Made by a program: the position numbers and the translations under genes. Below are positions 9,655 to 64,000 of a stretch of DNA of 64,000 nt, piece by piece. This DNA is from Lonicera japonica. Taxonomy: Eukaryota; Streptophyta; Magnoliopsida; Dipsacales; Caprifoliaceae. The notes beneath the pieces are model-generated. The model saw only the letters and a list, made by a program, of their open reading frames with translations. It was not told the DNA's origin and did no database searches. Position 1 is the first letter of the stretch; each line of letters starts with the position of its first letter. The stretch covers positions 2,170,001 through 2,234,000 of the forward strand of contig CM038468.1 of the NCBI GenBank assembly GCA_021464415.1, in the 5' to 3' direction.

Positions 9655-9659
9655 AAATT

Positions 9660-11313
9660 TGTAGACACCCCGATCCGTGACCCCCGCAAGAACCCTAACA
9701 ACCTTCGAGAACTGCTGTTTCTGGACTCCGAGACTCACCCAAACACCCGAGACTGCCCCGGAAGCGTCTATTGGCCAAACAAACATGTTTTAAAGTGAAA
9801 TGTCGCACGACATTCAAGATTGTCGCGCAACAGTCAAGATTGCCGCGCGACATACACCAGTATGTCGCACGACAATCCCACTTTTGGGGAACATGTCGCG
9901 CGACAAACACCCCACCACTCCACTTTCTGACTCAGCAATGAGTCAGAATCATCATTAAAGTAGAATGTCGCGCGACAGTCAAGATTGTCGCGCGACATAC
10001 ACCAATATGTCGCGCGACATACACCTTTTCGCCACTATAAATAGGCCAGCAGCACCCAAGGTTTAAGGACACCAACAACAAAGCAAAAAAACAGCAATTT
10101 TAGAGTAGGATTGCGGGTTTATGATCTGATTTTCTGATCTTTCGTCAAGTATTTTCTATTATCGTCTTATTTCTGAAGAATTATCGAATCTATTCTCGAC
10201 ACTCGACGTGTCCGGTCTCGGGAATCGAATTCTTGGAAATATCTGAAGAAGGAGAAGATTATTATCGCCGGAGATCTCTCTGCTGTATTATATTCTCTTT
10301 CTTATTATTATTCTCGTCGGGAAGGTAAATAAAGTTTCTTCTAGTAATTAAATAAGATATTATCCCCGTTCTAGTAAGCGAAGTGGCAACATGGTTGTGC
10401 TAAGTTTCTAACGCGCCCGAAAATCAAGTTTATCTGTGTACTTGTTTTATTTCTGTTGTTTTGTCCACATTTTATTTGAATAAACTTATTGCCAAGTTAC
10501 AAATAGTCTACTGTTTTCAAAACAAAAGACCCTGATAAAACCATTTGCAAAACCAGAAGAATAAGTACGTTATCGTCCGGATAAAATTATGTTTCCAAAA
10601 CCCAGACTGATACGACTTATCTAGGAATTAAAATCAACATATCCTGTCTTCTCTATAGACTGCGACGTGTCTGATAACTCTCCTCAAAGAGTTCTAGTTC
10701 CATATTAAATTAGTCCCGATACAAGATCCGAACTTTTACCAAACTAATCACAACCCGAGAAAACTGTCATTATCTGAGGAAATAATACGGGACACTCTTT
10801 CAAAATAAAAGATTTTGTCATTTGTATTTACATCTTTTAATAAATAAAACATCGGATCTCGGAACACAAAGGTTTTCATCCCTTTCCTGTTTTCCCCCAG
10901 AAATTAGGGTTTTCATCTGAAAAGTAGTAGACTGTCAGTAAAAGCATCCAAGTTTTTCAACATAGAATAAATATATAAGACCACTAGAGACCGAAAGGGC
11001 GGAATGTGTGCTTAACACCTTCCCAAACCGTAATATAGTTCCCAAACCCTATATAATCCTGGTTTCGTAGACAAACGTGTAAAGAAAGGCTTATCTGTAG
11101 CCTTCTCTCTTACACGACCCCTTTTTGTCCGTTTTCTCGTAAAACGTACTGGCGACTCTGAACGAACCCCTTTGCATCTAGAATAGACGTAGGGATACCC
11201 GATATAAATTATCAAACAACTCCAAGCAAATGGAGCGACGGAATCCCTTTCGACGCTTCAGACGCCCAACGAGCGGGGACGAGACCCGGGGGTCGCATTT
11301 GCGGATTCTCACA
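9660..11313 (+). mobile_element. Solo LTR, family B (Tat-type Gypsy)
   Basis: Runs from TGTAGACACCCCGATCC to GCGGATTCTCACA and is flanked by the 5-bp TSD AAATT (9655-9659 and 11314-11318). No internal region follows, so it arose by LTR-LTR recombination. It is homologous along its full length to the inverted LTR at 50193-51859 that belongs to the Tat element. It carries a U3 promoter (palindrome array plus TATA box) described separately. Confidence 0.93.
9801..10044 (+). promoter_or_regulatory. LTR promoter: eight TGTCGCGCGACA-type palindromes and TATA box
   Basis: Perfect 12-bp palindromes start at 9894, 9966, 9986 and 10008. One-mismatch variants start at 9801, 9821, 9841 and 9863; most differ by a transition in a CpG. 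The TATA box CTATAAATAG lies at 10035-10044, 15 bp after the last palindrome, so transcription should begin near 10065-10075. A second palindrome (10-bp arms TTCTGACTCA around spacer GCAA, 9925-9948) contains two TGACTCA half-sites like those of bZIP factors. Confidence 0.85.
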
Positions 11314-11318
11314 AAATT

Positions 11319-34856: not shown

Positions 34857-37823
34857 TTAGCCCCTAAACTTCCTCTGCACTCTCGCCGTATTTACTGCTA
34901 TCATCACATAGATCCAATCTTGTATCTTGTCCAAAAACTTTAAATAGGCGTATCTCCATGAGCTTCGGAGCATTAATGAACCAAATAATCCCCAAAACCC
35001 AGTAGCAAAACCAAGAACTGCACTCACATATAACCCCGTTGTCACAAACGTATCCTCATCTTCTTGATTGGTGTAACCTTTGCCATGATCAGTAGTGGGG
35101 CAAACCGAAGTTGATTCATCTTCTGGGCACTCATTTAGCGGAACCCCACAAAGTTTGTCATTTCCAGCATACACAGAGGCACTGAAGGTCTGGAGTTGAG
35201 TGCTTAGTGGAATTTTACCCGAAAAATTGTTAATTGACAAGTCTAATACACTAAGAAAATTCAAACTTCCAAGATCAATAGGTATTGCACCAGAAAGCTG
35301 GTTTCTGGACAAAACAAGAATTTCGAGATTCTTCATCTGACTAATATTTTGAATTATATGCCCAGTCAAATTGTTTCTTGAAAGGTTCAGGGAACATAAT
35401 CCTGCAAGACTTGCGAGTTCTTGGGGAATTTGTCCAACTAGTTTATTACTAGAAAGATTAATGCATTTCACTAATCTTAGAGTACTTTTGTATTCTAACA
35501 ATTTTCCTTTCCACTGTACCAATGCACTAAGCATGTACAATTCAAGGTAATTTTTACGATACATTATGGGAATTTTAAAATTCGTGGGCTTCCTCGAACT
35601 TTCTGTTTGAATCAAAGAATAAAGTTTGTCGAAGCATTGTGGAATGATTCCTGATATTTTATTCTGAGAGAGGTCCAAGACTTGAGTATTATTAAGAAGA
35701 CACATGCTAGGGGGTATGCTTCCATAGAACTCATTATTTCGGAAACTAAGGAAAGATAAATGTGTTAGGTCTGTCCCTATCCACGTCGGTAGTTGTCCTG
35801 ATAATTTATTTTCATTCGTATCAACAACTTCTAGACTTGAACAGTTCTTCAAAGATGACGGGAGTTCCCCTATGAAACTGTTGTTACGCAAGTTCAACAA
35901 CATAAGCTGATCAAGGAAGCCAAAAGAGGCTGGAATTTTCTGAGACAAATTATTGTTTGACAAATCAATAAATCCCAATTCATTCCCGTTGATCCAACAA
36001 TCTGGAACCTCACCTGATAAAAGGTTGTTTGAGAGGTTGAGAAAATTTAAAAAATCAGTCACAATTGTGCACAATGAAATGATTGATCCAGAGAACATAT
36101 TTCTAGAAAGATTCAGCCATGTCAAATTACGAGGAAACAAAGGTATTGGACCCTTAAAACGATTAGAACTCAAATCTATTGGATCAAGTTTAACAAACTT
36201 GAGTGATAAATCAGGTAGTATTCCATGGATCTGGTTATCAGAGAAATTTAGGTGAACTAATTTTGGTGAGAGATCCCAAAACCAATGTGGAATTGTATCC
36301 AAAATTCGAGCACTAGAGATATCAAGGAAGGAGAAATTGCTTTGAGATCGAAGCCATTTTGGGAAATGAGGTCCCAACATACAACTTGAAAGTGCAATAT
36401 AATCCAACTCAAAATGAGGAGTCCAATCAGAGCTGAACTCCAAAGTCAACAAGTTAAAAGATAAGTCTAATGTCTTCAATTTGGAAAGTTTCCTGATGCT
36501 TTTGGGTCCCACTTTAAGAATATTTTTGCTAAGATACAGGTATCTCAACAGAGGAAACGATGTTAGGTCGGGCAATGACCCATTCAATTCATTCCCGGAT
36601 AAGCTGAGATATTCAAGACTAGAACTTTGGCCAAAACATTTCGGGAAAGACCCATTCAATTTATTACTTCCAACCCCCAATTGCCTCGAAGATGAAAAGC
36701 TTGTAAAATCAGGTAATGAGCCACTGATTTTGTTTTCAGATAAATCCAAAATCTCCAATGGATTATTTGATGCGAATAACGTTTCGAAAAGCTCTGGAAG
36801 TTGTCCAGTTAAATTATTATAAGATAGGTCCAGTGACCGGATACGACTTAAGTTCATGAATGATTTTGGAATCTCACCTTCAAGGGCACAACCAGAAAGA
36901 CTGAGAGTTTTGAGGGACATCATATTCCCAAAAGCATCAGGAATAGAACCTCCTAAAGGATTATAAGACATGTCAACATCGACAAGGCTACTACTGAAAT
37001 TGAATAACCAATTGTAGCTCGAAGAATTAGTGAAACTGTTATAAGATAAGTCAATTATAGAAAGAGGAATAGAAGAAGAGTTTATCAAGTGAAGTGAGGG
37101 AGAAATGATTCCAGGGAGGTTGCATTCAGAAAGGTGCAAACTTGATAGGAAAGAGAGCCTATCAATGGATTGCAGCAAGTCGACCTTCTGAAGGTCAATA
37201 GTACTGAAATCAAGGTCTCGTAACAAACGAAGATCAGAAAGCCACTCTAGGTTTTCCACAGTCAGGTCGGAATTAAACCCCAAGTCAAGAGAGTGCAAGT
37301 TAGTAAGGTTCCCAAGCTGATGAGGAACTCTACCACCGAAATAATTGAATGATAAATTCAGGTATTGTAATTTGTTAAGGGAACCAATGAATTCTGGGAT
37401 TGGGCTCGGCTGGAAATAATTGGAACTGAGGTCCAAATACTTCAAGTGATTCAATTCAAGTAAAGAGGGACTAACCTTTCCACTGAGATGGACAAGATAA
37501 AATGAATTATCAGTGGCTTCATCATACCAACCATGAAGATCGAGAAGGATTACATGACCAGTAGTATTGCTACAGCGGATTCCTCTCCATTTGCAGCAGT
37601 CTTCTTCTTTGCTCCCCCAAGAAGAGAGAAGTCCACCCTTATCCAATGTGATTTCTTTTTTAAAATTGAGGAGGGCTTGTCTCTCATTCTCTCTGCACCT
37701 GATCAACTTCACAGCTGTATTATCTCCAACACTTCCTGAACTGAAAAGTAAACAAGTGAAGGCTACGAACAACATTGATACTGTTATTATTTTGGAAACC
37801 ATAATTATCAAAGCAAAAGGCAA
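34857..37823 (-). CDS. LRR receptor-like protein (RLP1), intact
   Basis: A 988-residue cell-surface receptor without a kinase. A hydrophobic signal peptide (about residues 1-34; Met8, at 37802, is the equally likely start and matches the paralogue) precedes the LRRNT cap ([25 protein letters not shown] at 76-84). LRRs run to about 900, interrupted near residue 770 by an island with a Y-x8-KG motif ([11 protein letters not shown]). An acidic stretch and a transmembrane segment (about 930-953) with GxxxG spacing ([11 protein letters not shown]) follow, then a basic tail of about 35 residues ending RVQRKFRG. RLPs of this type signal through SOBIR1- and SERK-like kinases, and the GxxxG helix fits that. 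The frame is single-exon and open, so it is likely functional. EIX-type RLPs are the best match; ligand unknown. Confidence 0.95.
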
Positions 37824-39769: not shown

Positions 39770-42700
39770 TTATCCCCTAAACTTCCTCTGCACTCTCGCC
39801 GTATTTACAGCTATTGTCACATAGATCCAATCTTGTATTTGGTCCAAAAACTTGAAATATGCGAATCTCCATGAGCTTCGGAGCAGTAATGGACCAACGA
39901 ATCCCCAAAATCCTATAGCAAAACCAAGAACTACACTCGCATAGAAACTTGTTGTTACAAATGTATCCTTAGCTTTGCCATGATAATTAGGTGGGGGAAA
40001 CGAAGTTGATCCATCTTCTGGGCACAGAGGCAACGGAAGCCCACAAAGTTTGTCATTTCCAGCATAAACAGAGGCATTGAAGGTGTCGAGTTGAGTGCTT
40101 CGTGGAATTTTACCCGAAAACTTGTTACTTGATAAGTCCAAGACATTAAGAGAATTCAATCTTCCAAGACCGATAGGAATCGTACCAGAAAGAATGTTTC
40201 TTGACAAATCAAGAATTTCGAGCTCTTTCAGTTGACTAATATTTTGAATGAAATGTCCAGTCAAATTGTTTCTTGAAAGGTTCAGGGAACGTAATCCCAC
40301 AAGACTTGCAAGTTCTTGGGGAATTTGTCCCACTAGTTTATTACTAGAAAGATCAATGCATTTTAGTAGTCCCAGAGTAGTACTGTACTCTAACACTTTT
40401 CCTTTCCATTGCACCAATGTACTAGCCACATACATTTCACCCATGTAAAACCGGGTATTGCTGCTAAAATAGGTTAGTAGAGAAATTTCAAAAGGCAAGG
40501 TCTTTGAACTTTCTGTTTGAATCATTGAATAAAATTTATTGAAGCATTTTGGAATGCTTCCCGATATTCTGTTCCGAGAGAGGTCCAAGACTTGAGTATG
40601 ACTAAGAAGACACATGCTAAGCGGTATACTTCCGTGGAACTCATTCCTTCGAAAACTAAGGACAACTAGTTGCGTTAGGTGTGTCCCTATCCATATCGGT
40701 ACTTGTCCTGATAACTTATTTTCACTCATATCTATAACCTTCAAATATGAACAGTTCTTCAAAGATGAAGGGAGTTCCCCTGTGAAATTATTGTTACGCA
40801 AGTTCAATAAATGAAGTTTATCTAGGAAGCCAACAGAGGCTGGAATTTTTTGGGAGAAATTATTATTTGCCAAATCAAAAATTTCCAAACTACTCATGTT
40901 GATCCAACAGTCCGGAAGCTCACCTGATAAATGGTTATCTGAGAGGTCTAGATACAGTAAGAAATCAGTCGCAATTGTGCACATTGAAATAATTGATCCA
41001 GAGAACATATTTTTAGAGAGATTCAGGTATGACAAATTACGAGGGAATAAAGGTATTGGACCTTTAAAACGATTAGAACTCAAATCTATTTGAAAAAGTT
41101 TAACAAACTTGAGTGATAAATCGGGTAGCATGCCATGGATCTCGTTGTAAGATATATTTAGGTTGCCTAAATTAGGTGAGAGATCCCAAAACCAATGTGG
41201 AATTGTATCCGAAATTGTAGCATTAGAGATATCAAGGGAGGAGAAATTGCTTTGAGATCGAAGCCATTCCGGGAAATGAGGTCCCAACGTGGAGCTTGAA
41301 AGTTTAATAATATCCAACTGAAAACTAGGAGTCCAACCAGAGCTAAACTCCAAAGTCAACAAGTTAAAAGACAAGTCTAATTCCCCCAAGTTGGAAAGAT
41401 CCCCAATGCTTTCGGGTAGTCTCCCTTGTATCTTATTATTTGTAAGATACAAGTATCTCAACAGAGGAAATGATGTTAGGTCAGGCAATGACCCATTCAA
41501 TTCATTCGCGGTCAAGTAGAGCTCTTCAAGAGAAGAACTTTGACCAAAGCGTTTTGGGAAAGGCCCACTCAATTTATTACTACTAACCAGCAACTGCCTC
41601 AAAGATGAAAAGCTTGTAAAATCAGATATTGAGCCACTGACTTTGTTTTCAGTTAAATCCAAAATCTCCAATGAATTATTTGATGCGAACAATATTTGGA
41701 AAAGCTCTGGAAGCTGTCCAGTTAAATTATTATAAGATAGGTCCAGTGACCGGATACGACTTAAGTTTTTGAAAGATTTTGGAATCTCACCTTCAAAGGA
41801 ACAACTAGAAAGACTGAGACTTTCGAGGGATATCATATTCCCAAAAGCATCAGGAATAGAACCTCCTAAAGGATTATAAGACATGTCAACATCGACAAGG
41901 CTACTACTGAAATTGAATAACCAAATGTAACTCGAAGAATTAGTGAAACTGTTAAAAGACAATTCAATTATAGAAAGAGGAATAGAAGAAGAGTTTATCA
42001 AGTGAACTGAGGGAGAAATGATTTCAGGAAGATTGCAATCACAAAGGTGCAAACTTGATAGGAAAGAGAGCCTACCAATGGATTGTAGCAAGTCGACCTT
42101 CTGAAAGTAAATATCACTGAGATCAAGGTGTCGTAACAAACGAAGATCAGATAGCCACTCTAGGTTTTTGACAATCAGGTTATTAGACCCCAAGTCAAGA
42201 GAGCGCAAGATAGTAAGGTTCCCAAGCTGATGAGGAACTCTACCAATGAAATCATTGTACGACAGATTCAAGTGTTGTAATTTACTGAGGGAACCAATGA
42301 ATTCTGGGATTGGGCTTGACCGGAACTTACTGAAACTGAGGTCCAAATACTTCAAGTGATTCAATTCAATTCAATTCAATCAAACTGAGATCAAGGTGTC
42401 GTAACAAACGAAGATCAGAAAGCCACTCTAGGTTTTCCACAGTCAGGTTGTAATTACGCCCCAAGTTAAGAAAGCGTAAGCTAGTAAGGTTCCCAAGCTG
42501 ATGAGGAACTCTACCAACAAATAAATTGTTACTGAGGTCCAAATATTTTAAATTTGTAAGGTTCAAAAGTTGATGAGGAACTCTACCAACAAAGTAACTG
42601 TCCGACAAATTCAAGTGTTGTAATTTGCTAAGGGAACCGATGAATTCTGGGATCGGGCTCAATTGGAAAAAATTGTAACTGAGGTCCAAATACTTCAAGT

Positions 42701-50192: not shown

Positions 50193-51859
50193 TGTGAGAA
50201 TCCGCAAATGCGACCCCCGGGTCTCGTCCCCGTTCGTTTGGGCGTCTGAAACGTCGGAACGGATTCCGTCGTTCCATTTTGCTTGGAGTGATTCATATTG
50301 GGTGTCCCTACGTCTATTCTAGATGCAAAGGGGTTCGTTCAGAGTCGCCAGTACGTTTTACGAGAAAACGGACAAAAGGGGTCGTGTAAGAGGAAAGGCT
50401 ACAGATAAGCCTTTCTTCACACGTTTGTCTACGAAACCAGGATTTCTATAGGGTTCGGGAACTATATTACGGTTTGGGAAGGTGTTAAGCACCCATTCCG
50501 CCCTTTCGGTCTCTAGTGGTCTTATATGTTTATTTTATGTTGAAAAACTTGGATGCTTTTTACTGACAGTCTACTACTTTTTAAATGAAAACCCTAATTT
50601 TTAGGGAAAAACGGGAAAGGGGTAGAAACCTTTGTGTTCCGAGATCCGACGTTTTTATTTATTGAAAGATGTAAATACAAATGACAAAACCTTTTATGTT
50701 GAAAGAGTGTCCCGTATTATTTTCTCAGATAATGACGGTTTTCTCGTGTTGTGATTAGTTTTGTAAAAGTTCAGATCTATATTGGGACTGATTTAATATG
50801 GAACTAGAACTCTTTGAGGAGAGTTATCAGACACGTCGCAGTCTATAGAGAAGACAGGATATGTTGATTTTAATTCCTAGATAAGTCTTATCAGTCCGGG
50901 TTTTGAAAACAGAATTTTATCCGGACGATAGTCTACTTATTCTTCTGGTTTTGCAAATGGTTTTATCAGGGTCTTTTATTTTGAAGATGGTAGACTATTT
51001 ATAACTTGGCAATAAGTTTATTCAAATAAAACGTGGACAAAACAACAAAAATAAAACAAGTACACAGACAAACCTGATTTTCCAGCGCGTTAGGAACCTA
51101 GCACAACCATGTTGCCACTTCGCTTACCAGCGCGCCCCGTTAGAAAAAATTGAATTCTAAAAGTTTACAATAAAACAAATATGCAAATATTTAATTACTA
51201 GAAGAGACTTTATTTACCTTCCCGACGAGAATAATAATAAAAAAGAGAATATAATACGGCAGAGGGATCTCCGGCGATAATAATCTTCTCCTTCTTCAGA
51301 TATTTCCGAGAATTCGATTCCCGAGACTGGACACGTTGAGTGTCGAGAATAGATTCGATAATTCTTCAGAAATAAGACGATAATAGAAAATACTAGACGA
51401 AAGATCAGAAAATCAGATCATAAACCTGCAATTCTGCTCTAAAACTGTTGTTTTTTGCTGTGATGTTGGTGTCCTTGAACCTTGGGTGCTGCTGGCCTAT
51501 TTATAGTGCCGAAAAGGTGTATGTCGCGTGACAATCTTGACTGTCGCGCGACATTCTACTTTAATGATGATTCTGACTCATTGCTGAGTCAGAAAGTGGT
51601 GGGTGGGGTGTTTGTCGCGCGACATGTTCCCCAAAAGGTAGGATTGTCGTGCGACATACACCAGTATGTCGCGCGACAATCTTGACTGTCGCGCGACAAT
51701 CTTGAATGCCGTGCGACATTTCACTTTAAAACATGTTTGTTTGGCCAATAGACGCTTCCGGGACAGTCTCGGGTGTTCAGGTGGGTCCCGGAGTCCAGAA
51801 ACAGCAGTTCTCGAAGGTTGTTAGGGTTCTTGCGGGGGTCACGGATCGGGGTGTCTACA
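50193..51859 (-). repeat. 3' LTR, family B
   Basis: Reads on the minus strand from TGTAGACACCCCGATCC to GCGGATTCTCACA, homologous to the solo LTR at 9660-11313. The base before it, on the genome side, follows AAAAC, the presumed target 5-mer; the matching copy would be outside the window. Confidence 0.95.
51494..51718 (-). promoter_or_regulatory. LTR promoter: seven palindromes and TATA box
   Basis: The TATA box is TATTTATAG on plus (51498-51506). Exact TGTCGCGCGACA copies start at 51542, 51613, 51667 and 51687. Variants start at 51522, 51645 and 51707. The TTCTGACTCA inverted repeat lies at 51571-51594. Same arrangement as in the solo LTR. Confidence 0.85.
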
Positions 51860-51977: not shown

Positions 51978-52510
51978 GCCTCCGGAGAGGGCTTTTGTGT
52001 TTAGTTTTGCCTCCGGAGAGGGCTTTTGTTACCTCATTGCCTCTTTCGAGGGCTTTTTGCTCCACGTGCCTCCCCCCGGAAGGACTTTTTGCTCCACTTG
52101 CCTCCCCCCGGAAGGACTTTTTGCTCCATGTGCCTCTCCTCGAGAGGACTTTTTGCTCCACTTGCCTCCCCCTGAAAGGACTTTTTGCTCCACGTGCCTC
52201 TCCTCGAGAGGACTTTTTGCTCCACGTGCCTCTTTGGGAGGACTTTTTGCTCCACTTGCCTCCCCCCGGAAGGACTTTTTGCTCCACGTGCCTCTCCTTG
52301 AGAGGACTTTTTGCTCCACGTGCCTCCCTCCGGAAGGACTTTTTGCTCCACGTGCCTCTCCTCGAGAGGACTTTTTGCTCCACTTGCCTCCCCCCGGAAG
52401 GACTTTTTGCTCCACTTGCCTCCTCCCGGAAGGACTTTTTGCTCCACTTGCCTCCCCCCGGAAGGACTTTTTGCTCCACGTGCCTCTCTGGGAGGACTTT
52501 TGATCTGTAA
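51978..52510. repeat. 32-bp minisatellite, about 14 full units
   Basis: Unit GCCTCCCCCCGGAAGG followed by ACTTTTTGCTCCACGT. Units alternate between CCCCCGGAAGG-like and CTCCTCGAGAGG-like versions, plus short CTTTGGGAGG forms. Because 32 is not a multiple of three, all six frames look open for long stretches (up to 278 codons), which is an artefact. It lies between the 3' LTR and the antisense gene. Confidence 0.95.
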
Positions 52511-52529
52511 AAAGAAATAAAGAAAGAAA

Positions 52530-53020
52530 ATTGCCTCCGGAGAGGACTTGCGCCTGTGGAAAGGACTTGATGACCGGTTTGCCTGTAGAAAGGGCTTAGG
52601 TGAATGGATTGCCTCCGGGGAGGGCTTGTGCCTGTAGAAAGGACTTGTGGATGATGTTTTGCCTGTACAAAGGGCTTATGTGAATGGATTGCCTCCAGGG
52701 ATGGCTTCGCCTCAGGTGGGAGGACTACCAGCTGCGCCTCAGGTGGGAGGACTACCATCTGCGCCTCAGGTGGGAGGACTACCATTGCTCCACTGTGCCT
52801 CCTCATGAGGGCTTTTGATATGTAAAAGAAAGAAAAAAGAAAAAGAAAACAAATTGCCTCCGGAGAGGGCTTGTGCCTGTGTTAAGGACTTGATGACCGG
52901 TTTGCCTGTAGAAAGGGCTTAGGTGAATGGATTGCCTCCGGGGAGGGCTTGTGCCTGTGAATTGCCTCTGGAGAGGGCTTGTGTTGGTGAATTGCCTCCG
53001 GAGACTGCTAGAGTGAGAGA
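52530..53020. repeat. Related minisatellite plus 27-bp triplet
   Basis: Degenerate units containing GCCTCCGGAGAGGGCTTGTG and GCCTGTAGAAAGG recur. Three head-to-tail 27-bp units (CGCCTCAGGTGGGAGGACTA then CCA plus three bases) start at 52708, 52735 and 52762. Confidence 0.85.
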
Positions 53021-53802: not shown

Positions 53803-53885
53803 TGTCGCGCGACACCTCGTGAGAGGGCTCTTTGTCGCGCGACAATGATGCCATTTGTCGCGCGACATTTGGTTCCACTATATAA
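53803..53885 (+). promoter_or_regulatory. Promoter of antisense gene 1: three palindromes and TATA box
   Basis: Exact TGTCGCGCGACA copies at 53803-53814, 53833-53844 and 53856-53867. The TATA-like CTATATAA follows at 53878-53885, 10 bp after the last copy. A pyrimidine-rich leader leads to ATG 54021. Confidence 0.8.
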
Positions 53886-54020
53886 CCCTCTTGCTGAGCT
53901 CATTCTCTCCTTCCTCTTTCTCTCTCTAGCTTCTTTTTCTCTCTCTTTCTCTCTTCTCCTAAGCGCGGAAGCCCTGCTGCCTTTCCGACTTTCTCGTTTA
54001 TTCCACTCATATATATACAG

Positions 54021-57000
54021 ATGGATCCTCCAGAGCCTGATAGATTGGAGGGTGACCAGGAGGAGATTACTTTCACAGACGCGTAGGGCGTTCTTCGGTG
54101 TAGTCCTCATCACGATGACTGGGAGGACTTGGATTGGTATGCCGAGGATGGGGTGGACCGCGGTCAGGCGGTGGTCTACCGAGATGCTACCCGGGCTGCT
54201 CCAGTCCCGGATATTCCATGGCTCTTGATGGAGCCTGCTTCCCATGAGATTCATCGACGATCTCTGGTATGTTTTCTTGAAATTCTATCTTCTTTTGATT
54301 TATTTCTGCCGTTTCCTGCACGTATTTTAAACAATTCATATTTAGCATACATGTCTGCCTAGGAATAGCGTCCGATTTTATGAGTCCGTACTTTTACTTG
54401 TGATACCTTTTAGGTTTTTAGAAAATTACATAACGTACCCCTATAACTCTATAACTCTCATAATTACACCAAAGTACCCTCAGGTTTGGAAAATTACATA
54501 ATTTACCCGTATAACTCCATATCTCTCATAATTACACCAAAGTACCCTCAGGTTTGGAAAATTACATAATTTACCCGTATAACTCCATATCTCTCATAAT
54601 TACACCAAAGTACCCTCAAGTTTGGAAAATTACATAATTTACCCCTATGACCCTATATCTCTCATAATTACACCAAAGTACCCTCAGGTTTGGAAAATTA
54701 CATAATTTTACCCTATAACCCTATATCTCTCATAATTACACCAAAATACCCTCAGGTTTGGAAAATTACATAATTTTACCCTATAACCCTATATCTCTCA
54801 TAATTACACCAAAGTACCCTCAGGTTTGGAAAATTACATAATTTACCCTTATAACCCCAAAACTCTCATAATTACACCAAAATACCCTCAGGTTTTGGAA
54901 AATTACATAATTTACCCCCATAACCCTATAACTCTCATAATTACACCAAAATACCCTCAAGTTTTGGAAAATTACATAATTTACCCCCATAACCCTATAA
55001 CTCTCATAATTACACCAAAATACCCTCAGGTTTCTTATATCCATATCTCCATTTGGTTTGCAGTGGGTTGGCCGAGGTTGGGGTTCTCCCAACACTATAT
55101 CATCGGAGTGGCGACGGGCACCGGCCCCCGTCCAGGAGTTGCTCCTTTCGACTCCTTTTGGTTCCCTCTTCGACACCCTCCCGGAGCGAGTTTCTAGGGC
55201 GACGGTTTTGGTGTCGGCACTGGCTTGTCATTGGTGGGATACTACTCATACCTTCCATTGGAGCTGGGGTGAGATGACGATGACACCCCTCGATCTTTTT
55301 GCTTTGACTTGGATTTCTTTAGGGGGGTCCCTATTCGGATTGACGTCCCTTTGCGTCTGACGGCGGAGGGCATTGTGGGCGCACTTAGGTGGTTCCCGAG
55401 CGACGGAGTTCGGGTGATACGATTCCTTGGGGTGTCTTAGTTACGCGACTAGCCACAGAGAGAGCTCGACTAGTTGCTTCGGGGGTGCCGATGACCCGTC
55501 AGGAGGCGTGTCAGTATGCCCGCGTCCTTCTCCTACTGACACTCCATGACCTATTCGAGGCCCGTGGGGGGATACGGCCCATCTTTGGTGGTTTCCCTAT
55601 CTTCGGGACTTCAGCCTCATGTTTGATTATGACTGGGGCGGCTTCATTCTCGCAGTCCTATATGATGCCATGGACCAGGTCTCTCGCCATTTAGCCTTGA
55701 ACCTCAAGGGCTTCTCTTTACTATGGGAGGTACTTACTTTTGTCCTTATATCTTTGCTTTGGACCTTCATATATCACATGTTGATTATTGCTAAAATCCT
55801 TTATCTTTCCTTTTCAGAGTTGTTTTGTGGCATACACACGTCTGGGCCTGGCCCAGGTGGATCTCCTCGTTGAGAACGAGGATCAGTTTCCCCTTCTCCG
55901 CCGATTCATCGTGGGGAACTATAGGGCTCCTTATGTATACCGGATTAGGGAGACCGGAGCTGCTGCCATCCACGACCTGTTGGAGGAGCAGGTAAATATC
56001 TTAGTATTTTTTCAATAAATAGTAACATAAAATATGAATTACTAAAATAAAATCTTATTCTCTTTTCAGATTGAGTGTGCCCTTGGGGTGATCTGGGCCC
56101 CCATTTTGGATATGGCCCTGCTTTGGCTGCTTCGAGGACCAGGCGGCTCATCAGAGACGAGTACGACTTTCACTTCTACTTGGGTGAGAGAGTTATTCGC
56201 CAGCATTCGCCTGCCCAGTGGCCTCGGGTTCCTTTATTCCCGCCAGTTCAGATGAGGCGGACCGGTGAGATTGACTCGGTGATGGTGCAGTCCCTTATAG
56301 GCGGGCTTGGCTTTCAGAGGTTTACTGAGGAGGGGGATTATGACATCTTTGCTGCCCGTTATCTGATGAGGGAGCCGAAGGGGACTCGGGGACGGGTCTT
56401 CTACGAGAGGTACCGGGCATTGGGAGGCGATCCCAACTACATACGAGGGCAGACTCACTTGTCCAGGACTGTCCCTGGTTACTTGCCGCCTATCCCTGAT
56501 CAGAGGGATAACATTTTGGACTCTGATGATGATGATCCAGATGGCGAGAGGGACGTCCCTGCTGGTGCTGAGAGAGGTGGTGATAGACCCGAGGGTGCTG
56601 ACGATAGGCCCGAGGGTGCTGAGGGAGGTGGGACGGCGGCGGTTCCAGAGCAGTCGTCTCCGACTGTACCGACAGAGGGACAGTATACCGAGAGAGAGAG
56701 AGGTGATTTCTCTGAGCGGTCCTGGGAGCCTGCAGACCTTGGATTTGGTTACGAGCATTTTGGGCGGACTCCTTCTACTGCTGCTGCTACTTCTAGTGGG
56801 GTCCCACCTTTGAGGGAGACGGCTGTTGTGGACCCTCCTGGTGTTCGTACCTTCGCCACACTGACTCCCCTTCCGTCTGCTGTCATGGGTCCTCCGGTCA
56901 GATCTACAGGTCTTGGTGGCTCGTCTTCTCGTCCTCCTTTGTTTCCGATTTATGAGGAGGGCGGGTCTACTTCTGCTGCTATGCCGGGGAGTTCGTCCAT

Positions 57001-57587
57001 TCATCCGGTAGATCTACCGTCACTCCCTCGAGACTTCTCCTATGTTGGTGCTGGCTTACGTCGATATGCAGTGCCTGAGTATCCTCTCCCTAGAGACACG
57101 TTTGACTACTTGGGTGGCCGTTCTGATGATGAGGTATGTGCTTTTCTTCCTTCGATATCTTTTCATATCCATGCTTACTTATTTTATCGGTGCTGATTCT
57201 TCTTTCTTTTCTTTTCAGCGGGTGAGCGTGCGAGTGGCAGATCTGAGGGCTTGGCAGTCCCAGTACCTTTACAGCTGGAACCTGCTCCAGTACATTGGTC
57301 GAGACCCTACGACATACATGCGGGACTATCAGAGGGCGATCGACGTTTCCTTACGGGCAGATGACCCTTTATCTTCCTCTCGCGCTCGGACGGAGTCTCG
57401 GAGGAGCAGTAGCCAGACTTCCAGGTGGTCTCGATCCCCGATGATCCGGTCCATGGCTCCGGTCCAGGCGACAGGGCCTTCGCAGGCAGCGGCTCCTTCT
57501 ACACAGGGCGTCCCAGAGGTCGATCCTACTCCCGAGGAGGGTTCGGGTGATAGTGGGAGTGTGTCTAAACGCTCCCGATTAGATTAG
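54021..57587 (+). pseudogene. Antisense accessory gene 1: plant-mobile-domain-like protein
   Basis: Spliced gene opposite to the retrotransposon. Proposed exons: 54021-54268, 55064-55729, 55818-55991, 56070-57133 and 57219-57587, each bounded by GT and AG. The product resembles plant mobile domain (aminotransferase-like, MAIN/MAIL1-type) proteins, e.g. HWWDTTHTFHW, MTPLDLFALTWI, FDYDWGGFILAVLYDAMD and AYTRLGLAQVDLL. Then follow an acidic, low-complexity region (DSDDDDPDGERD, GGDRPEGADDRPEGAEGG) and a basic tail SKRSRLD that could be a nuclear signal. Damage: TAG at 54084 and at least three frame changes in exon 2 (about 55330, 55430, 55585). Such domains are known to travel in plant transposons; its role there is unknown. 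Exon limits are estimates. Confidence 0.75.
54420..55032. repeat. 68-bp tandem repeat in intron 1 of the antisense gene
   Basis: Nine copies of GAAAATTACATAATTTACCC, then TATAACCCTATATCTCTC, ATAATTACACCAAAGTACCC and TCAGGTTTG, with starts at 54421, 54489, 54557, 54625, 54693, 54761, 54829, 54898 and 54967. It ends just before the splice acceptor at 55063. Confidence 0.95.
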
Positions 57588-57884
57588 CTTTCCTTCCTGC
57601 ATTTAGTTAGTCCTGACAAATATGTAGTTTTTATACTTTTAGACAGGGTTTTTTTGTAGAAAAACTGTTCTTTTATTGGTTTTATATATAAAAAAATCTT
57701 CATTTGTGTCTGATGATGATAATCACATGAATTGATAATTTTCGGAAACGTACCTTTGTTATGGCATAATACTTAAGGTCGCTGCAAAAGAACAGAGTGA
57801 GTACAAGTACACAAAAGTGGATCTTTTGGCAAAACCGACTCTTACGTGTAAGAAAAACTCAAAACAAAGCACACCCAGGGAGTT

Positions 57885-57965
57885 TGTCGCGCGACATTCC
57901 CTCCTGGACATGGGTTTGTCGCGCGACAAACAGGTACAGGAGCCCTCTTTTTTGCTATAAATACA
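57885..57965 (+). promoter_or_regulatory. Promoter of antisense gene 2: two palindromes and TATA box
   Basis: Exact TGTCGCGCGACA at 57885-57896 and 57917-57928, TATA box CTATAAATACA at 57955-57965, ATG at 58003. The sequence between 57588 and 57884 holds the end of gene 1 (T-rich, A-tract near 57690) and nothing else seen. Confidence 0.8.
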
Positions 57966-58002: not shown

Positions 58003-58353
58003 ATGTCCTCTTATCTCACAAATTCTGATTTTTCTTACGTTGAAGCCCGAGATGCTCTGATATCTTCTGAGAATGGCTTGAACTTTGGTGTATTCAGTCC
58101 TTTAGCAAGCTGGTGCCATCGTCCTGTAGATTTCTCCTTTTTGCTTGGTGCTCTGTACTTCTGGAGTCCTGCCGATCATCTTTTCTGTTTCGGACTAGAC
58201 GAGCTCTGCCCGACTTATGAAGAATTTTCTTGGCTATTGCATTCTGACGTTCGCGTTCCGATGGCTATTCCCGTAGAAGAAATCGGTCCTCGAGAGATGC
58301 TGATTGCTTCCGTTCTGATGGCTATTCCCGTAGAAGAAATCGGTCCTCGAGAG
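58003..58353 (+). pseudogene. Antisense accessory gene 2, N-terminal fragment
   Basis: From ATG 58003 about 100 residues read as a conserved-looking protein: DFSYVEARDALISSENGL, FSFLLGALYFWSPADHLFCF, LDELCPTYEEFSWLLHSD and VRVPMAIPVEEIGPRE. The pattern of a region describing FWxPxxxxFxFG...LxPTxEE is reminiscent of DUF7745-type uncharacterised plant proteins that often accompany retroelements; this match is from memory of the pattern and moderate. The gene is cut at 58353, where it meets the integrase gene tail to tail, and its final 42 codons repeat. Function unknown. Confidence 0.6.
58254..58353. repeat. 57-bp spaced duplication at the integrase junction
   Basis: About 42 bp (GATGGCTATTCCCGTAGAAG, then AAATCGGTCCTCGAGAG) occurs twice, starting about 57 bp apart, separated by ATGCTGATTGCTTCC. 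Confidence 0.9.
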
Positions 58354-59387
58354 GGAACCTCTAATTCAACAGGGAGGACTGCTTCCATCCCGTATGTAAG
58401 TGAAAATGGTGTTGCCCCGGTAGAGACCCTTTCAGTGGTGCGGTATCCCCACAATGCGTATGGTAATTTCTCTGGCCAGTCCCGATAGGTGTCGGTCATC
58501 TTGCTCAGGATGTTCTTCAGATTCTTGTTGGTGGCCTCAACTGCCCCATTGGTTTGTGGCCTGTATGGTGAAGACCTGTGTCGGGTAATACCGTATTCTT
58601 CCATGACTGTATTAGCTTCTCCTTCGAAGTGGGTGCCGTTATCCGAGATGATCTCGTGTGGGACCCCATACCGGCAGACGATATTTCGTTTGATAAATCG
58701 GGCAACTTTCTTGGCGTCAAGGGTCTGGAAAGACTCGGCCTCTACCCATTTGGTGAAGTAGTCGATGGCCACTAGTATGAATTCGTGGCCGTTGCTGGCT
58801 TTGGGCAAAATTTTCCCAATGATGTCAATTCCCTAGGTAGCGAAAGGCCAGGGAGCTGTCATGTTGTACAACTCTTTCGGAGGAAGCTTCTGGGATTTAG
58901 CATAAATTTGGCACTTGTGGCAACGGCGTACGTGGTTAATGCAGTCGTTTTGCAAGGTAGACCAGAAATAACCTTGTCTGATGATCTTGCGGGCAAGTGT
59001 ATGGCCGCTCATATGAGGTCCGCAATCGCCCCCATGTATCTGATCCATCATTTTGACGGATTCTTCTTCAGTGAGACATTGGAGATGGGTTCCGTCGTAG
59101 TTCCTCTTATACAGCCTTCCGGCACAAAGTATGAACCCGGATGCTAACCTTCTGAGTGTGACCCGCGTTTTCTTATCTGTTTGCTCGGGATACAGATGAT
59201 TTTTCAATTAGTTCCAGATGTCATAAAACCAAGTAGTCGAGTCCCCCTCTTTTTCGTTCTCTACCTCAAGGGCCATGCAGTGTGCTGGCCCTGATTTCCT
59301 TTGTACCGTAAGAGTAATTTCTTCCATCCCCTCCGGGATATCGATCATAGATGCCAAGGTTGCCAGTGCGTCAGCAAAACTGTTCTG
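58354..59387 (-). pseudogene. Integrase of the Tat element, 3' end deleted
   Basis: Integrase inserts the cDNA into the genome. Visible: HHCC zinc-binding region (MDQIHGGDCGPHMSGHTL, HVRRCHKCQIYAK) and a catalytic core with D (VAIDYFTKW), D (ISDNGTHF) and E (GAVEATNKN) all present. TAG at 58833-58835 falls where a Trp codon is expected (PFAT*GIDI), and TAA at 59208-59210 lies upstream. After VLPVELEVPS the coding sequence ends abruptly; the C-terminal domain is missing and replaced by the antisense gene junction. Inactive. Confidence 0.9.
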
Positions 59388-60403
59388 TTACCTGGGGACA
59401 TAGTAAAACTCCGCATGCTCGAATTTTCCTACGACATCCCCCAATCGGGCGAGGTATGGTACTAACTTCTCATCTCTGACCTTCCATTCTTGTAGCACTT
59501 GGTGGACTACTAATGCCGAATCTCCATACACTTGTATTCTCCGTATACCCCTTTGGAGTGCAATCTCTAATCCAATTATGCAGGCTTCATACTCTGCCAT
59601 GTTGTTGGTGCAGAAGAAGTCCAGACGATACGATAATGGGGAGTGAGTTTGGTCTGGAGAGACTAACAGGATGCCTATCCCGTTTCCGTTTCTGTTGGCG
59701 GCCCCGTCGAAGTATAATTTCCAGTCTTCATCGATCTCGACATTCATGATAGTTTCGTCGGGGAACTCGGCTTCTTCTAGCATATCCCCCAATATCGGAT
59801 TGTGGGCCAGGTAATCAGCTATGATCTTGCCTTTGACTGCCTTCTGGGTCATGTAGGTGATGTCAAATTCGGAGAGCATGAATAACCACTTTGCCATACG
59901 ATTCGAGAGAGCTGGTTTCTCGAAGAGGTATTTTAGCGGATCAATTCGTGATGCCAGGATGACCGGAAGACCAGCATGTAATGCCGTAATTTCTGTGTTA
60001 CCCAGATGAGAGCGGCGCATGAATTCTCTAATGGCGTGTAGTTTATTTCGAATGGGGATAACTTTTTGCTGACGTAGTAGATGGCTTGTTCTTTTCGAGT
60101 ATCAACTACATGTTGGGCTAGCATAGCTCCTGCAGCTGAATCCATAACCGTTAGGTATAAGATTAGTGGCAGTCCGGTCTGTGGTGGAGCTAATACTGGG
60201 GGATTGGAGAGATAGTCCTTGATTCTATCAAAAGCCTCCTGACACTGATCGTCCCACTTTCCCGGTGAAGATTTCCTCAGGAGTTTGAAGATAGGTTCGC
60301 AGGTCTGAATGAGCTGAGAGATGAACCTACTGATGTACTGCAGATTACCCAAAAATCCCCGGACTTCTTTCTCGGTACGAGGCTCAGGCATTTCTTGGAT
60401 AGC
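59388..60403 (-). pseudogene. RNase H domains (connected and Tat-type second copy)
   Basis: First part (60403-about 59990): end of RT plus Ty3-type RNase H (MDSAAGAMLAQHV, IYYVSKKLSPFEINYTPLE). A frameshift lies near 59950-60010, after which the frame reads LASRIDPLKYLFEKPALSNRM and then the second, archaeal-like RNase H: LYFDGAANRNGNGIGILL, NMAEYEACIIGLEIAL and YGDSALVVHQVLQEW, with the Asp/Glu/Asp catalytic positions retained. The stretch ends at TAA 59388-59390. Two RNase H domains in tandem are diagnostic of the Tat lineage. Confidence 0.9.
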
Positions 60404-63400
60404 TCAAACCTTGGCAGGGTCTACCTCGATTCCTTTCTTACTGACAACATAACCCAGGAGTTTTCCCTTGGTTACCCCGAACACACACTTCTGCGGATTG
60501 AGCCTCATCTGGTATTGGCAGAGGCGGTCAAAAAAAGCTCGTAAGGCTGGTACATGGCCTCCCCTTTCTTTTGATTTGATTATCATATCGTCCACATATA
60601 TTTCTACTTCTTTGTGGATCATGTCGTGGAAGATAGTTGTAGCTGCCCTTTGATATGTTGCTCCGGCATTCTTTAGCCCGAATGGCATAACAGTGTAGCA
60701 GTATGTTCCCCATGGCGTGATAAATGTTGTTTTCTCTTGGTGATCTGGGTGCATCTTGATCTGATTATACCCGGCAAATCCGTCCACAAATGACTTCAAG
60801 GCATGGTTGGCAGTATTATCTACTATCAAATCAATGTTGGGTAATGGAAAATCGTCTTTTGGGCAGGCTTTATTGAGATCTCGGTAATCCACACACATGC
60901 AGACCTTCCCATTTGCCTTTGGAACGGGTACAATGTTGGCTAACCATAAAGGGTACTCGATCACCCGCAAAAACCCTACACTCAGTTGCTTCATCACCTC
61001 TTCTTTTACTTTCAGGGACCATTCTGGCGTAAGCTTTCTCAATTTTTGCTTGACGGGTCTGAATTCCGGCTTGGTGTGTATCTCGTGCATGACTATCTGG
61101 CTGTTCAAACCTGGCATATCTGCATAAGACCAGGCGAAGACATCCACGTACTCTTTCAGAGTTTGTGTGAATTTCTCTCTTTCTGTCTCACTTAGACTTG
61201 CCCCAATACGGACTTCCTTCCTTTCCTCTTCTGTTCCAAGGTTAATTATAAGAGTGTCTCCTTCTTCACTTTGTATACGCTGATCCTTCCGTTTAGGGTG
61301 TTCGTTTAGTCTTTCCAACTCCATATAAGCAATTACAGAATTGAAACTAACAAGATAACGCAAAATAGAGTTTTCCTCATTAATAACAGTGCTTACAGGT
61401 ACAAGTTTGAAAAGTAAATTTAGGAAAGACTCTTCCCTACCCTTTTCCCCACTCTTATCTCTCACCCTTACAATTTCACTCTTTCCCCCCTTTTTTCGGT
61501 AATCTGGATCAGCGTGTATCAGGTGTACAGGGTCGTCTCTTGGCTCGTCATCCCCTAGAGCCATGACATCGAAGAGATTTCCGATCATTTCTTCCTCTTC
61601 CTTGTCTTCACTTTCTTTTCCTGGTCCGATCGTTAACTTGGCAGAGAAGCTGTGTGTGATACTTTCTTTGAGGTAAAGGTCCTCTTCATAGAAGATTTCC
61701 CATCCCGGAAGGTTATCTCCGTTGCTATTCCTCCAGGGCTCTTGAAAGCCACAAAAGGGGAAGTCTTCTCCTTCCTTGACAAAAAACCCATTCAGAGAGC
61801 TAAAACTCGGATACTGATGCCCTCGGCTCATTTTTTCTTGGTTGTCCTCTCCGGTGTGTTGATACCCCAAACCTTCTCTTTCGTACCTCGTTACCAGTTC
61901 TAAGGCTTGAAGTAATCCGAACTGTCCCATTCCCAGACTGGCTCCAGGTAAGTATTTCATCTTTCTCAGCATGTTCGTGATCTTGGTACTGAGACCGGGG
62001 ATATTATCAAGGGGTAGATACTTGATTCTCTGGGTGGTGAGAGCTTGTACTTGAGGCTCATAAGAAAAGCCTCCCAACTGTATGCTTTGACTCCCGATGC
62101 ACAACACAGGTAATTCCAGATCTGCCAAGGTCCTTTCAGGATCTCCTTGGATGGTGATTACATTCCCTTCGAAGGGTGTCTTGATTTTCTGGTGTAAGGA
62201 GGAGGGGAGTGCTCCTATGTCATGTAGCCAGGCTCTTCCTAACAGTAGGTTGAAACTGGAGGGAATGTCTATGATTTGGAACTTGGCCAGAAAGTTTCCG
62301 GGACCAACCATGAGATCAAGCTTTAGGGAACCCAGAACGGCCCTCCTGGTATTGTCATAGGCCCTGACGGTTACGGCTGATGGAGAAAGTTCTGAATCCA
62401 ATATACCCAAGCATCTGGCGGTCTTCAGGGGGCAAACATTTATAGTCGACCCGTTATCGATGAGAACTTGCGGCAGGATTTTTCCTCGAGTCCGAACAGT
62501 GATGTGGAGAGCCAGGCTGTGTTTCTTCCCCAATGGAGATAAGTCTTCATCTGAGAATGACAGACTTCTTTGAACTGTAAGTGACCCAATCATGTTTGGC
62601 AGTTGTTCGGGCGTAGAGTCTGGCGATATGACAGCCTCATCTAGGAGTTTGATGAAGGCGGTCCTGTGAGGTTTGGAGGCAACCAGAAGGCCCCAAATGG
62701 TGATGTGAGCCTGGGTTTTCTTTAGCTGTTCCAATACTCGATCTTCTCCTACTTCCTTAGGAGGTGGCGTTTTCTCGACATCCATTAGCGGTGGCTGATA
62801 TACCCTTCCCGAACGGGTAATTTGCTGTATCCAAAGGGATGCTGGGTCTGATCCCTCTGAGACTTCCGGTGATTCTGGTTCTGTTGACCAACTGAAGGCT
62901 TTGGGGGAGGTTTCTGGCATACAGATTGTCTCCTTGGGAAGGCCTCGGGGATTCCATGGTTGTTTCTTCCTGTCTTGGGTCCATCCTATCCTAGCTTTTC
63001 CGGGATTGGTTTTAATTGAAAGTGGCTGTGAGATCCCCTGATTGGTTCTTCCTAAACCCTGCCCAGGTAGAAAATTCATCTTATCCATCCATTGGTTGAT
63101 TATCGGATTAAGGCCTGGCGCCATTTGAGCCTTTGCTGGCGGTACGACGGGTGCCTTGCAGGCTGGGTCATCTCGAATGAGTCTTACGGGGTCAAAGCCT
63201 TCTTCATCAGTGGTCAAGGTATTAATTCCCGCAGGTGGAGCATGGTTGGGAAGTGGGTTGTTGGTAACATTGGGCCCACCAGGTGCGGGAATGGTTCCGG
63301 CTTCAATGAGGTCCTGAATACGGTGACGAAGAGCCAACCAGCGTTCCGTGTCATGGCCTGCTGCTTGATGGTATGCACAGTTCTCATTCATCCTCCAAGT

Positions 63401-64000
63401 AACGGGAATAGGACTTGGTGGAGGACGTGGGTTGAGTGGGGTGATTAGTCTGGCTTTCCGGAGTAGTTCCAAGCTTTTGACCAGGGTAGTGGGAAGAGTA
63501 CAGATGTTCCTTTTTCTCCTGACTTCAGTGCTCGAAGAATCTCCTTGTGTGGGCCAATTCATCGAAGGTGCTTGTTGTGGCTGCTGAAACGGATTTTGTT
63601 GATACGGGTATGAGCCTATTTGGTTAACGGTTGGAGTGGCCATCTTTCTCCCTGCGTATGAGGCTTTCTTGGTATCATTCTCGGCTTTCTTAGCCAACTC
63701 TTCTTCTACTTGTGACCCTATGCTTAACAAGGCCCTGAAATGTGGAAATACGTGCTTTCCCATACAACTTAATACAGCTGGAGTAAAATTCCTCTGTATG
63801 ATCTCCAACTGTTCTTCTTCATCAGGCCGTTTGTGCATTTGGGATGCCATCTCTCTCCAGCGTGTGACGAAATCACTGAAGCCTTCCTTCTCTCCTTGCT
63901 TGGTCATTTCCAGGTGCTTGCGGGTAATTTCCAAATCTTCGTTGGACCCGTATTTATTCATGAATTCCTTAACAATATCTCCCCAAGTCTTCGTGTGGTG
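60404..64000 (-). CDS. Gag-protease-reverse transcriptase polyprotein (Tat/Gypsy), partial
   Basis: Open from the right edge to TGA at 60404-60406. The first Met is 63961, but the frame continues upstream, so the true N-terminus is outside. Order: gag (SDFVTRWREMASQM; nucleocapsid-like NCAYHQAAGHDTERW), a G-patch-like stretch (LPGQGLGRTNQG), aspartic protease (VLIDNGSTINVCP), a second G-patch-like stretch (YLPGASLGMGQFG), and reverse transcriptase (LANIVPVPKANGK, YRDLNKACPKDDFPLP, SFVDGFAGYNQIKM, active site IYVDDMIIKS, LGYVVSKKGIEVDP). The TGA replaces a CGA-like codon in VxAIQEMP, a typical methyl-cytosine transition, and cuts RT from RNase H. Confidence 0.93.
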   Translation of the reverse strand, partial: HHTKTWGDIVKEFMNKYGSNEDLEITRKHLEMTKQGEKEGFSDFVTRWREMASQMHKRPDEEEQLEIIQRNFTPAVLSCMGKHVFPHFRALLSIGSQVEEELAKKAENDTKKASYAGRKMATPTVNQIGSYPYQQNPFQQPQQAPSMNWPTQGDSSSTEVRRKRNICTLPTTLVKSLELLRKARLITPLNPRPPPSPIPVTWRMNENCAYHQAAGHDTERWLALRHRIQDLIEAGTIPAPGGPNVTNNPLPNHAPPAGINTLTTDEEGFDPVRLIRDDPACKAPVVPPAKAQMAPGLNPIINQWMDKMNFLPGQGLGRTNQGISQPLSIKTNPGKARIGWTQDRKKQPWNPRGLPKETICMPETSPKAFSWSTEPESPEVSEGSDPASLWIQQITRSGRVYQPPLMDVEKTPPPKEVGEDRVLEQLKKTQAHITIWGLLVASKPHRTAFIKLLDEAVISPDSTPEQLPNMIGSLTVQRSLSFSDEDLSPLGKKHSLALHITVRTRGKILPQVLIDNGSTINVCPLKTARCLGILDSELSPSAVTVRAYDNTRRAVLGSLKLDLMVGPGNFLAKFQIIDIPSSFNLLLGRAWLHDIGALPSSLHQKIKTPFEGNVITIQGDPERTLADLELPVLCIGSQSIQLGGFSYEPQVQALTTQRIKYLPLDNIPGLSTKITNMLRKMKYLPGASLGMGQFGLLQALELVTRYEREGLGYQHTGEDNQEKMSRGHQYPSFSSLNGFFVKEGEDFPFCGFQEPWRNSNGDNLPGWEIFYEEDLYLKESITHSFSAKLTIGPGKESEDKEEEEMIGNLFDVMALGDDEPRDDPVHLIHADPDYRKKGGKSEIVRVRDKSGEKGREESFLNLLFKLVPVSTVINEENSILRYLVSFNSVIAYMELERLNEHPKRKDQRIQSEEGDTLIINLGTEEERKEVRIGASLSETEREKFTQTLKEYVDVFAWSYADMPGLNSQIVMHEIHTKPEFRPVKQKLRKLTPEWSLKVKEEVMKQLSVGFLRVIEYPLWLANIVPVPKANGKVCMCVDYRDLNKACPKDDFPLPNIDLIVDNTANHALKSFVDGFAGYNQIKMHPDHQEKTTFITPWGTYCYTVMPFGLKNAGATYQRAATTIFHDMIHKEVEIYVDDMIIKSKERGGHVPALRAFFDRLCQYQMRLNPQKCVFGVTKGKLLGYVVSKKGIEVDPAKV

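Follow-up and report, generated by a model that had tools for sequence, protein, structure and literature searches.

A palindrome common to the long terminal repeats and both antisense gene promoters of a Tat-clade retrotransposon family in Lonicera japonica, a candidate family-private control site

A stretch of 64,000 nucleotides from Lonicera japonica, referred to here as the window, raises the question of why one 12-bp palindrome, TGTCGCGCGACA, should stand before the promoter of the long terminal repeat (LTR) and before two oppositely directed internal genes of a single retrotransposon family, and of which protein might read it there. The 64-kb window holds 13 exact copies, each where the original prediction had placed it and with no further one elsewhere, and all of them lie, as had been claimed, in promoters of this one family: those of two LTRs, of antisense gene 1 and of antisense gene 2. 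When up to two mismatches are allowed, the count rises to 20 against 0.28 expected, the seven additional copies all falling within the two LTR arrays, and all 20 copies are found upstream of four TATA boxes that belong to the two LTRs and the two antisense genes. We read TGTCGCGCGACA as a family-private upstream control site that would place three promoters under one regulator, with a product of the element's antisense genes as its likeliest reader, and hold this reading with evenly balanced confidence. The features concerned are the following, with one TATA box for each palindrome cluster.

9660..11313, plus strand: solo LTR, with ~92% identity to 51859-50193 in the alignment and a 5-bp duplication, AAATT, at 9655-9659 and 11314-11318.
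9801..10019, plus strand: palindrome array of the solo LTR, eight sites, four of them exact (9894, 9966, 9986 and 10008); TATA box at 10036 (plus strand).
50193..51859, minus strand: 3' LTR of the window's minus-strand element, placed by alignment to the solo LTR.
51522..51718, minus strand: palindrome array of the 3' LTR, seven sites, four of them exact (51542, 51613, 51667 and 51687); TATA box at 51505 (minus strand).
53803..53867, plus strand: promoter of antisense gene 1, three exact palindromes; TATA box at 53879 (plus strand), positions conserved in 14 copies.
54021..57587, plus strand: antisense gene 1, which encodes a plant mobile domain (PMD) and contains introns; the window copy is interrupted, with PMD in two pieces, ends approximate.
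57885..57928, plus strand: promoter of antisense gene 2, two exact palindromes; TATA box at 57956 (plus strand), 30 copies compared.
58003..58345, plus strand: antisense gene 2, 5' part, PMD/DUF7745-like, truncated; end approximate, with a 418-aa full frame in other copies.
58221..63961, minus strand: gag-pol remainder with reverse transcriptase (RT), RNase H, second RNase H and integrase; 3' end lost at the gene 2 junction.

A TATA box had been expected within about 10-36 bp of every copy, which holds for the nearest exact copy of each cluster (11-36 bp) and fails for the distal exact copies of the LTRs, which lie up to ~180 bp away. The window has 14 CGCGCG strings, every one of them within a copy of the palindrome. 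None of 100 dinucleotide shuffles contained it, in agreement with the original prediction that chance is an unlikely source of 13 copies, and the 886-Mb genome carries 29,561 copies, against one copy of the reversed string (a control with two CpGs where the motif has three) and ~12 expected from base composition alone (window GC 36.9%). The shuffles, the mismatch count and the genome count against the reversed string rule out chance or base composition as the origin of the copies.

The element that carries these sites is, judged by its predicted domains, a Tat-clade Ty3/gypsy LTR retrotransposon at the level of Ogre and Retand. On the minus strand its pol domains follow the order RT, RT_RNaseH_2, RVT_3/RNase_H, Integrase_H2C2 and rve, and a second RNase H between RNase H and integrase characterizes the Ogre and Retand branches of this clade (PMC6317226). 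The solo LTR is flanked by its AAATT target duplication, a second LTR is present at 50193-51859 while the 5' LTR is located outside the window, and genes 1 and 2 are both extra antisense open reading frames (ORFs) between pol and the 3' LTR. The Retand marker TRP28 (PF04195) was not found in the scanned pieces of genes 1 and 2, gene 1 having been scanned in part. With an interrupted gene 1 and a truncated gene 2, the window copy is not a working one. A complete element at C1 559-577 kb shows the order LTR, gene-2 promoter, gene-1 promoter, LTR, with the compared parts of its LTR pair 95.9% identical, and another at C1 4188-4207 kb shows the mirror order, with 98.9% identity in the compared parts. 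Tandem repeats are also found in the window copy: an array of ~32-bp units beside the 3' LTR (51979-52565), an array of 68-bp units in the first intron of gene 1 (54349-54969) that is present in related copies too, and a short tandem duplication within gene 2 (58260-58345), just ahead of the junction where gene 2 breaks off and pol has lost its 3' end.

How far the palindrome is confined to this family can be seen from two samples of the genome. The first was drawn from the beginning of C1 (to 4.54 Mb): the 50 places listed there fall within 14 stretches, in which 53 exact sites were counted, and all 53 belong to the family (41 in LTRs, nine in gene-1 promoters and three in gene-2 promoters); all lie in family-aligned blocks, except for two sites of one stretch (L011) that fall between such blocks. 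Sites with G or C as both neighbours are rare, at 273 of 29,561, and 16 of 50 listed places of this kind, all on C1 and C2, were taken as the likeliest outsiders; 15 of these 16 are again in the family, in 12 LTRs and three gene-1 promoters. The palindrome, which the original prediction required not to be scattered at random, is therefore not randomly placed, for all its abundance in the genome; in these samples it is specific to the element and dense in its non-coding parts. If the reader were a host transcription factor, whose site the element had recruited for all three promoters without making a regulator of its own, several copies of a site ahead of a TATA box would be an ordinary promoter layout; however, no sampled site has been demonstrated to lie at a host gene, the samples being compatible with some hundreds. 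Two host candidates had been named as loose matches only, and they proved to be so: the CAMTA consensus, VCGCGB, is matched on neither strand, both CGCG cores reading TCGCGC or GCGCGA, and of the ARF site only the TGTC half-site is present in TGTCGCGCGACA. This likewise speaks against a host factor of either kind.

The site is also more stable than its surroundings. The 14 gene-1 promoters compared came from nine of 12 fetched stretches (two others had no match and one was LTR-like), four further copies and the window; divergence amounts to 3.6% of comparisons in the motif columns and 31.7% in the flanks, the 42 motif slots include 33 exact ones, and of 5000 random triples of 12-column blocks, two diverged as little as the motif. 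In 30 gene-2 promoters, from loci that are the best-scoring of 2,769 gene-2 candidates in the genome and not a random draw, motif divergence is 3.9% against 21.0% for the flanks, with both sites exact in 20 loci, one exact in eight, and a third exact site in five. Related elements had been expected to keep the palindrome in these promoters, and at least one exact copy is indeed present in 28 of 30 gene-2 and in 14 of 14 gene-1 promoters; LTR arrays (n = 14) carry 2-9 sites each, exact or near. Across seven sites picked for their differing flanks, 12 of 12 core columns are invariant and nearly all flanking columns reach at most 1 bit, and no 6-mer is common to the four promoter regions (151-257 bp) when TGTCGCGCGACA is masked out. 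The idea of one control element common to the sense LTR and both antisense promoters is thereby supported, neither the genome samples nor the related copies having refuted it.

The same comparisons bear on two further explanations. Passive spread by duplication or gene conversion, with the copies retained only through recent common descent, agrees with the way the LTR sites multiply by local duplication (recurring spacings of ~20, 22 and 31) and with the thousands of copies that derive from few sources, the 2,769 gene-2 candidates among them. However, the flanks of the LTR and antisense sites have nothing in common, and motif divergence is lower than that of the flanks by a factor of about nine at gene 1 and about five at gene 2, although CpGs mutate fast; passive spread is disfavoured and, in our estimate, barely credible. 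Alternatively, the host silencing or chromatin machinery might read the CpG-rich palindromes, or these might have a boundary role, the promoters being marked for repression. Each site has three CpGs, and among the single-mismatch copies of the fetched loci, some of which overlap, 35 of 56 carry a G-to-A change within a CpG, the pattern that methylation of the sites would leave. The element would nevertheless gain nothing from conserving a site of its own repression, yet the site outlasts its changing flanks, and one subgroup has even gained an extra palindrome copy. We regard a silencing or boundary mark as quite unlikely.

Candidate readers may be encoded by the antisense genes themselves. 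Gene 1 is a PMD gene, as the plant-mobile-domain-like product of the original prediction had implied: the window copy gives 31.3 and 16.2 bits in two pieces, below the Pfam cut-off of 34.9, and in a related copy one stretch reaches 58.3 bits. Gene 2 has an unbroken 418-aa frame in 10 of the 30 loci, and its product is, going by profile scores, a distant PMD/DUF7745 relative, with 18.2-20.8 bits for PMD and 14.0-23.5 bits for DUF7745 over much of its length in three copies, both below the Pfam cut-offs. Since the differences between gene-2 copies concentrate at third codon positions (37/23/146, for example), gene 2 encodes a protein that is under purifying selection; the pieces of gene 1 show a weaker tendency of this kind (11/8/29 over 80 codons, for example). 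A profile comparison between the two genes left their homology unsupported, the alignments being shallow. Pfam scans of genes 1 and 2 returned only PMD, DUF7745 and, weakly, DUF364.

Other PMD genes of the genome, where a search gave 162 matches with 117 of 4,837 candidates scored, serve as a comparison. In eight of eight sampled genes (L068-L075), the 2.1 kb upstream are without TGTCGCGCGACA, and the same eight stretches hold no palindrome of at least 10 bp in two copies. Several of these genes have, by eye, zinc-finger-like or transposase-like ORFs ahead of them, as in transposons of the Mutator-like element (MULE) type. PMD genes also form clusters at C8:2656690-2673737 and C1:76297746-76330411, three of them matching the full-length PMD profile in one frame, and these may be MAIN/MAIL-type genes of the host.

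With TGTCGCGCGACA as a private site of the family, the sense LTR and the two antisense accessory genes of one Tat-clade retrotransposon would be wired into one regulon. The two-fold symmetry of the palindrome suggests a dimeric reader, and such a factor would bind upstream of the TATA box; the likeliest candidates are the gene-1 PMD protein and the PMD/DUF7745-like gene-2 product, perhaps acting with a host partner. An element-encoded reader is favoured because nearly every sampled site belongs to the family and both accessory genes carry sites, and also because Arabidopsis PMD proteins are needed for genes with a common promoter motif (PMC7156037). The result would be a positive loop, in which the element activates, or shields from silencing, its genomic promoter along with its own regulators, and the three CpGs per site would provide a putative link to DNA methylation. 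In its fullest version, a closed circuit resembling a retroviral transactivator, antisense PMD-type dimers would recognize the family palindrome and activate or unsilence both the LTR and their own genes; we propose this tentatively, at somewhat less than an even chance.

Several observations weigh against this interpretation. One of the 16 atypical sites, L088 (C2:65281887-65282487), is unalignable to the family and has two degenerate look-alikes nearby; it may be a distant family relative or a host site, and a sample of ~70 sites still leaves room, among the 29,561, for hundreds that lie close to host genes. Two of the 30 gene-2 promoters are without any exact TGTCGCGCGACA, and single blocks 5' of the first gene-1 site are as conserved as the motif, so that the motif is not the sole constrained part of that promoter. 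The eight comparison PMD genes are a weak control because they are partly MULE-like by eye. Binding by the reader and its effect on expression are proposals made from sequence. No recognized DNA-binding domain appears in the Pfam scans of genes 1 and 2 (gene 1 in part), which fits a host transcription factor, and the authors of PMC7156037 are undecided between a PMD complex and a separate transcription factor as reader of the PMD-dependent Arabidopsis motif. For this last reason a host factor, which the PMD protein might recruit, is a strong rival of an element-encoded reader, and we place it somewhat below an even chance.

The proposed design has precedents. One is the VANC/VANDAL system, where sequence-specific anti-silencing of Arabidopsis MULE transposons has been described (PMC5735166, PMC10398659). 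In both cases a short motif specific to the transposon is concentrated in its own non-coding DNA, the target repeats multiply by tandem duplication, and the element has accessory protein genes of its own. They differ in that VANDAL is a DNA transposon and not an LTR retrotransposon, that the VANC motifs are directional (YAGTATTAY, AGTTGTCC) whereas TGTCGCGCGACA is palindromic, and that VANC binding has been shown by chromatin immunoprecipitation and electrophoretic mobility shift assay, whereas binding in the present case is a proposal; the proteins here match PMD/DUF7745 in Pfam. A second precedent is the Arabidopsis module of MAIN/MAIL1/PP7L and the promoter motif termed DOWN, in which MAIN and MAIL1 are needed for motif-bearing genes (PMC7156037, PMC9899485). 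PMD-type proteins are tied to a short promoter motif there as well, and a PMD protein is found here in gene 1 and, weakly, in gene 2; however, TGTCGCGCGACA differs from CATGCAGTTT (the MORC1 example, PMC9899485), and the Arabidopsis module concerns host genes, with no LTR or antisense genes, instead of a retrotransposon.

Antisense accessory genes are themselves known from the Tat clade, with gene23 of Grande (PMC7264820) and the TRP28 proteins of Retand (PMC11963269). The former is an antisense gene reported to have its own promoter and a nuclear protein, and a regulatory role has been proposed for the latter; in contrast, a cis-element common with the LTR is not described in the available portions of either paper, and the genes here are of PMD type, without a TRP28 match. 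PMD is likewise known from Ty3/gypsy elements, being carried as extra ORFs by 57% of the Ogre elements surveyed (PMC6317226) and forming Gypsy-only PMD-A clades (PMC5418596), although no target motif is described in what was available of these papers. The function of the antisense genes is termed unknown in PMC7264820 and PMC11963269, and so is that of PMD in PMC5418596. In the literature searched, the exact 12-mer occurred only in an unrelated paper and half-motif words only in another unrelated one; a motif common to LTR and antisense genes was not found in the texts consulted. Pelissier et al. 2025 (Nat Plants), whose subject is modules of PMD proteins and DNA motifs, may cover transposon modules, in which case the joining of LTR and antisense genes by one cis-element would be less new.

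Outside this genome, pattern and protein scans of viral contigs gave no usable relative, and genome contigs gave no relative by protein and two stray RT-pattern matches. The matches to the Tat-type RT pattern include the 4.7-kb contig BMWJ01000029.1 of a bacterial assembly (Streptomyces clavifer, L002), possibly through plant contamination. The window further contains an NB-ARC/LRR gene fragment (17052-18398) and two tandemly duplicated LRR genes (34857-37802 and 39770-41884).

One private palindrome in the LTR and the antisense promoters joins two puzzles in a single question, namely whether an element-encoded PMD-type protein binds the 12-mer. If such a protein binds TGTCGCGCGACA, a VANC-like module of self-regulation would exist in LTR retrotransposons. 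Were the closed circuit true, PMD, or a partner tethered by it, would be a sequence-specific reader, and the antisense genes of Tat elements would have a function.

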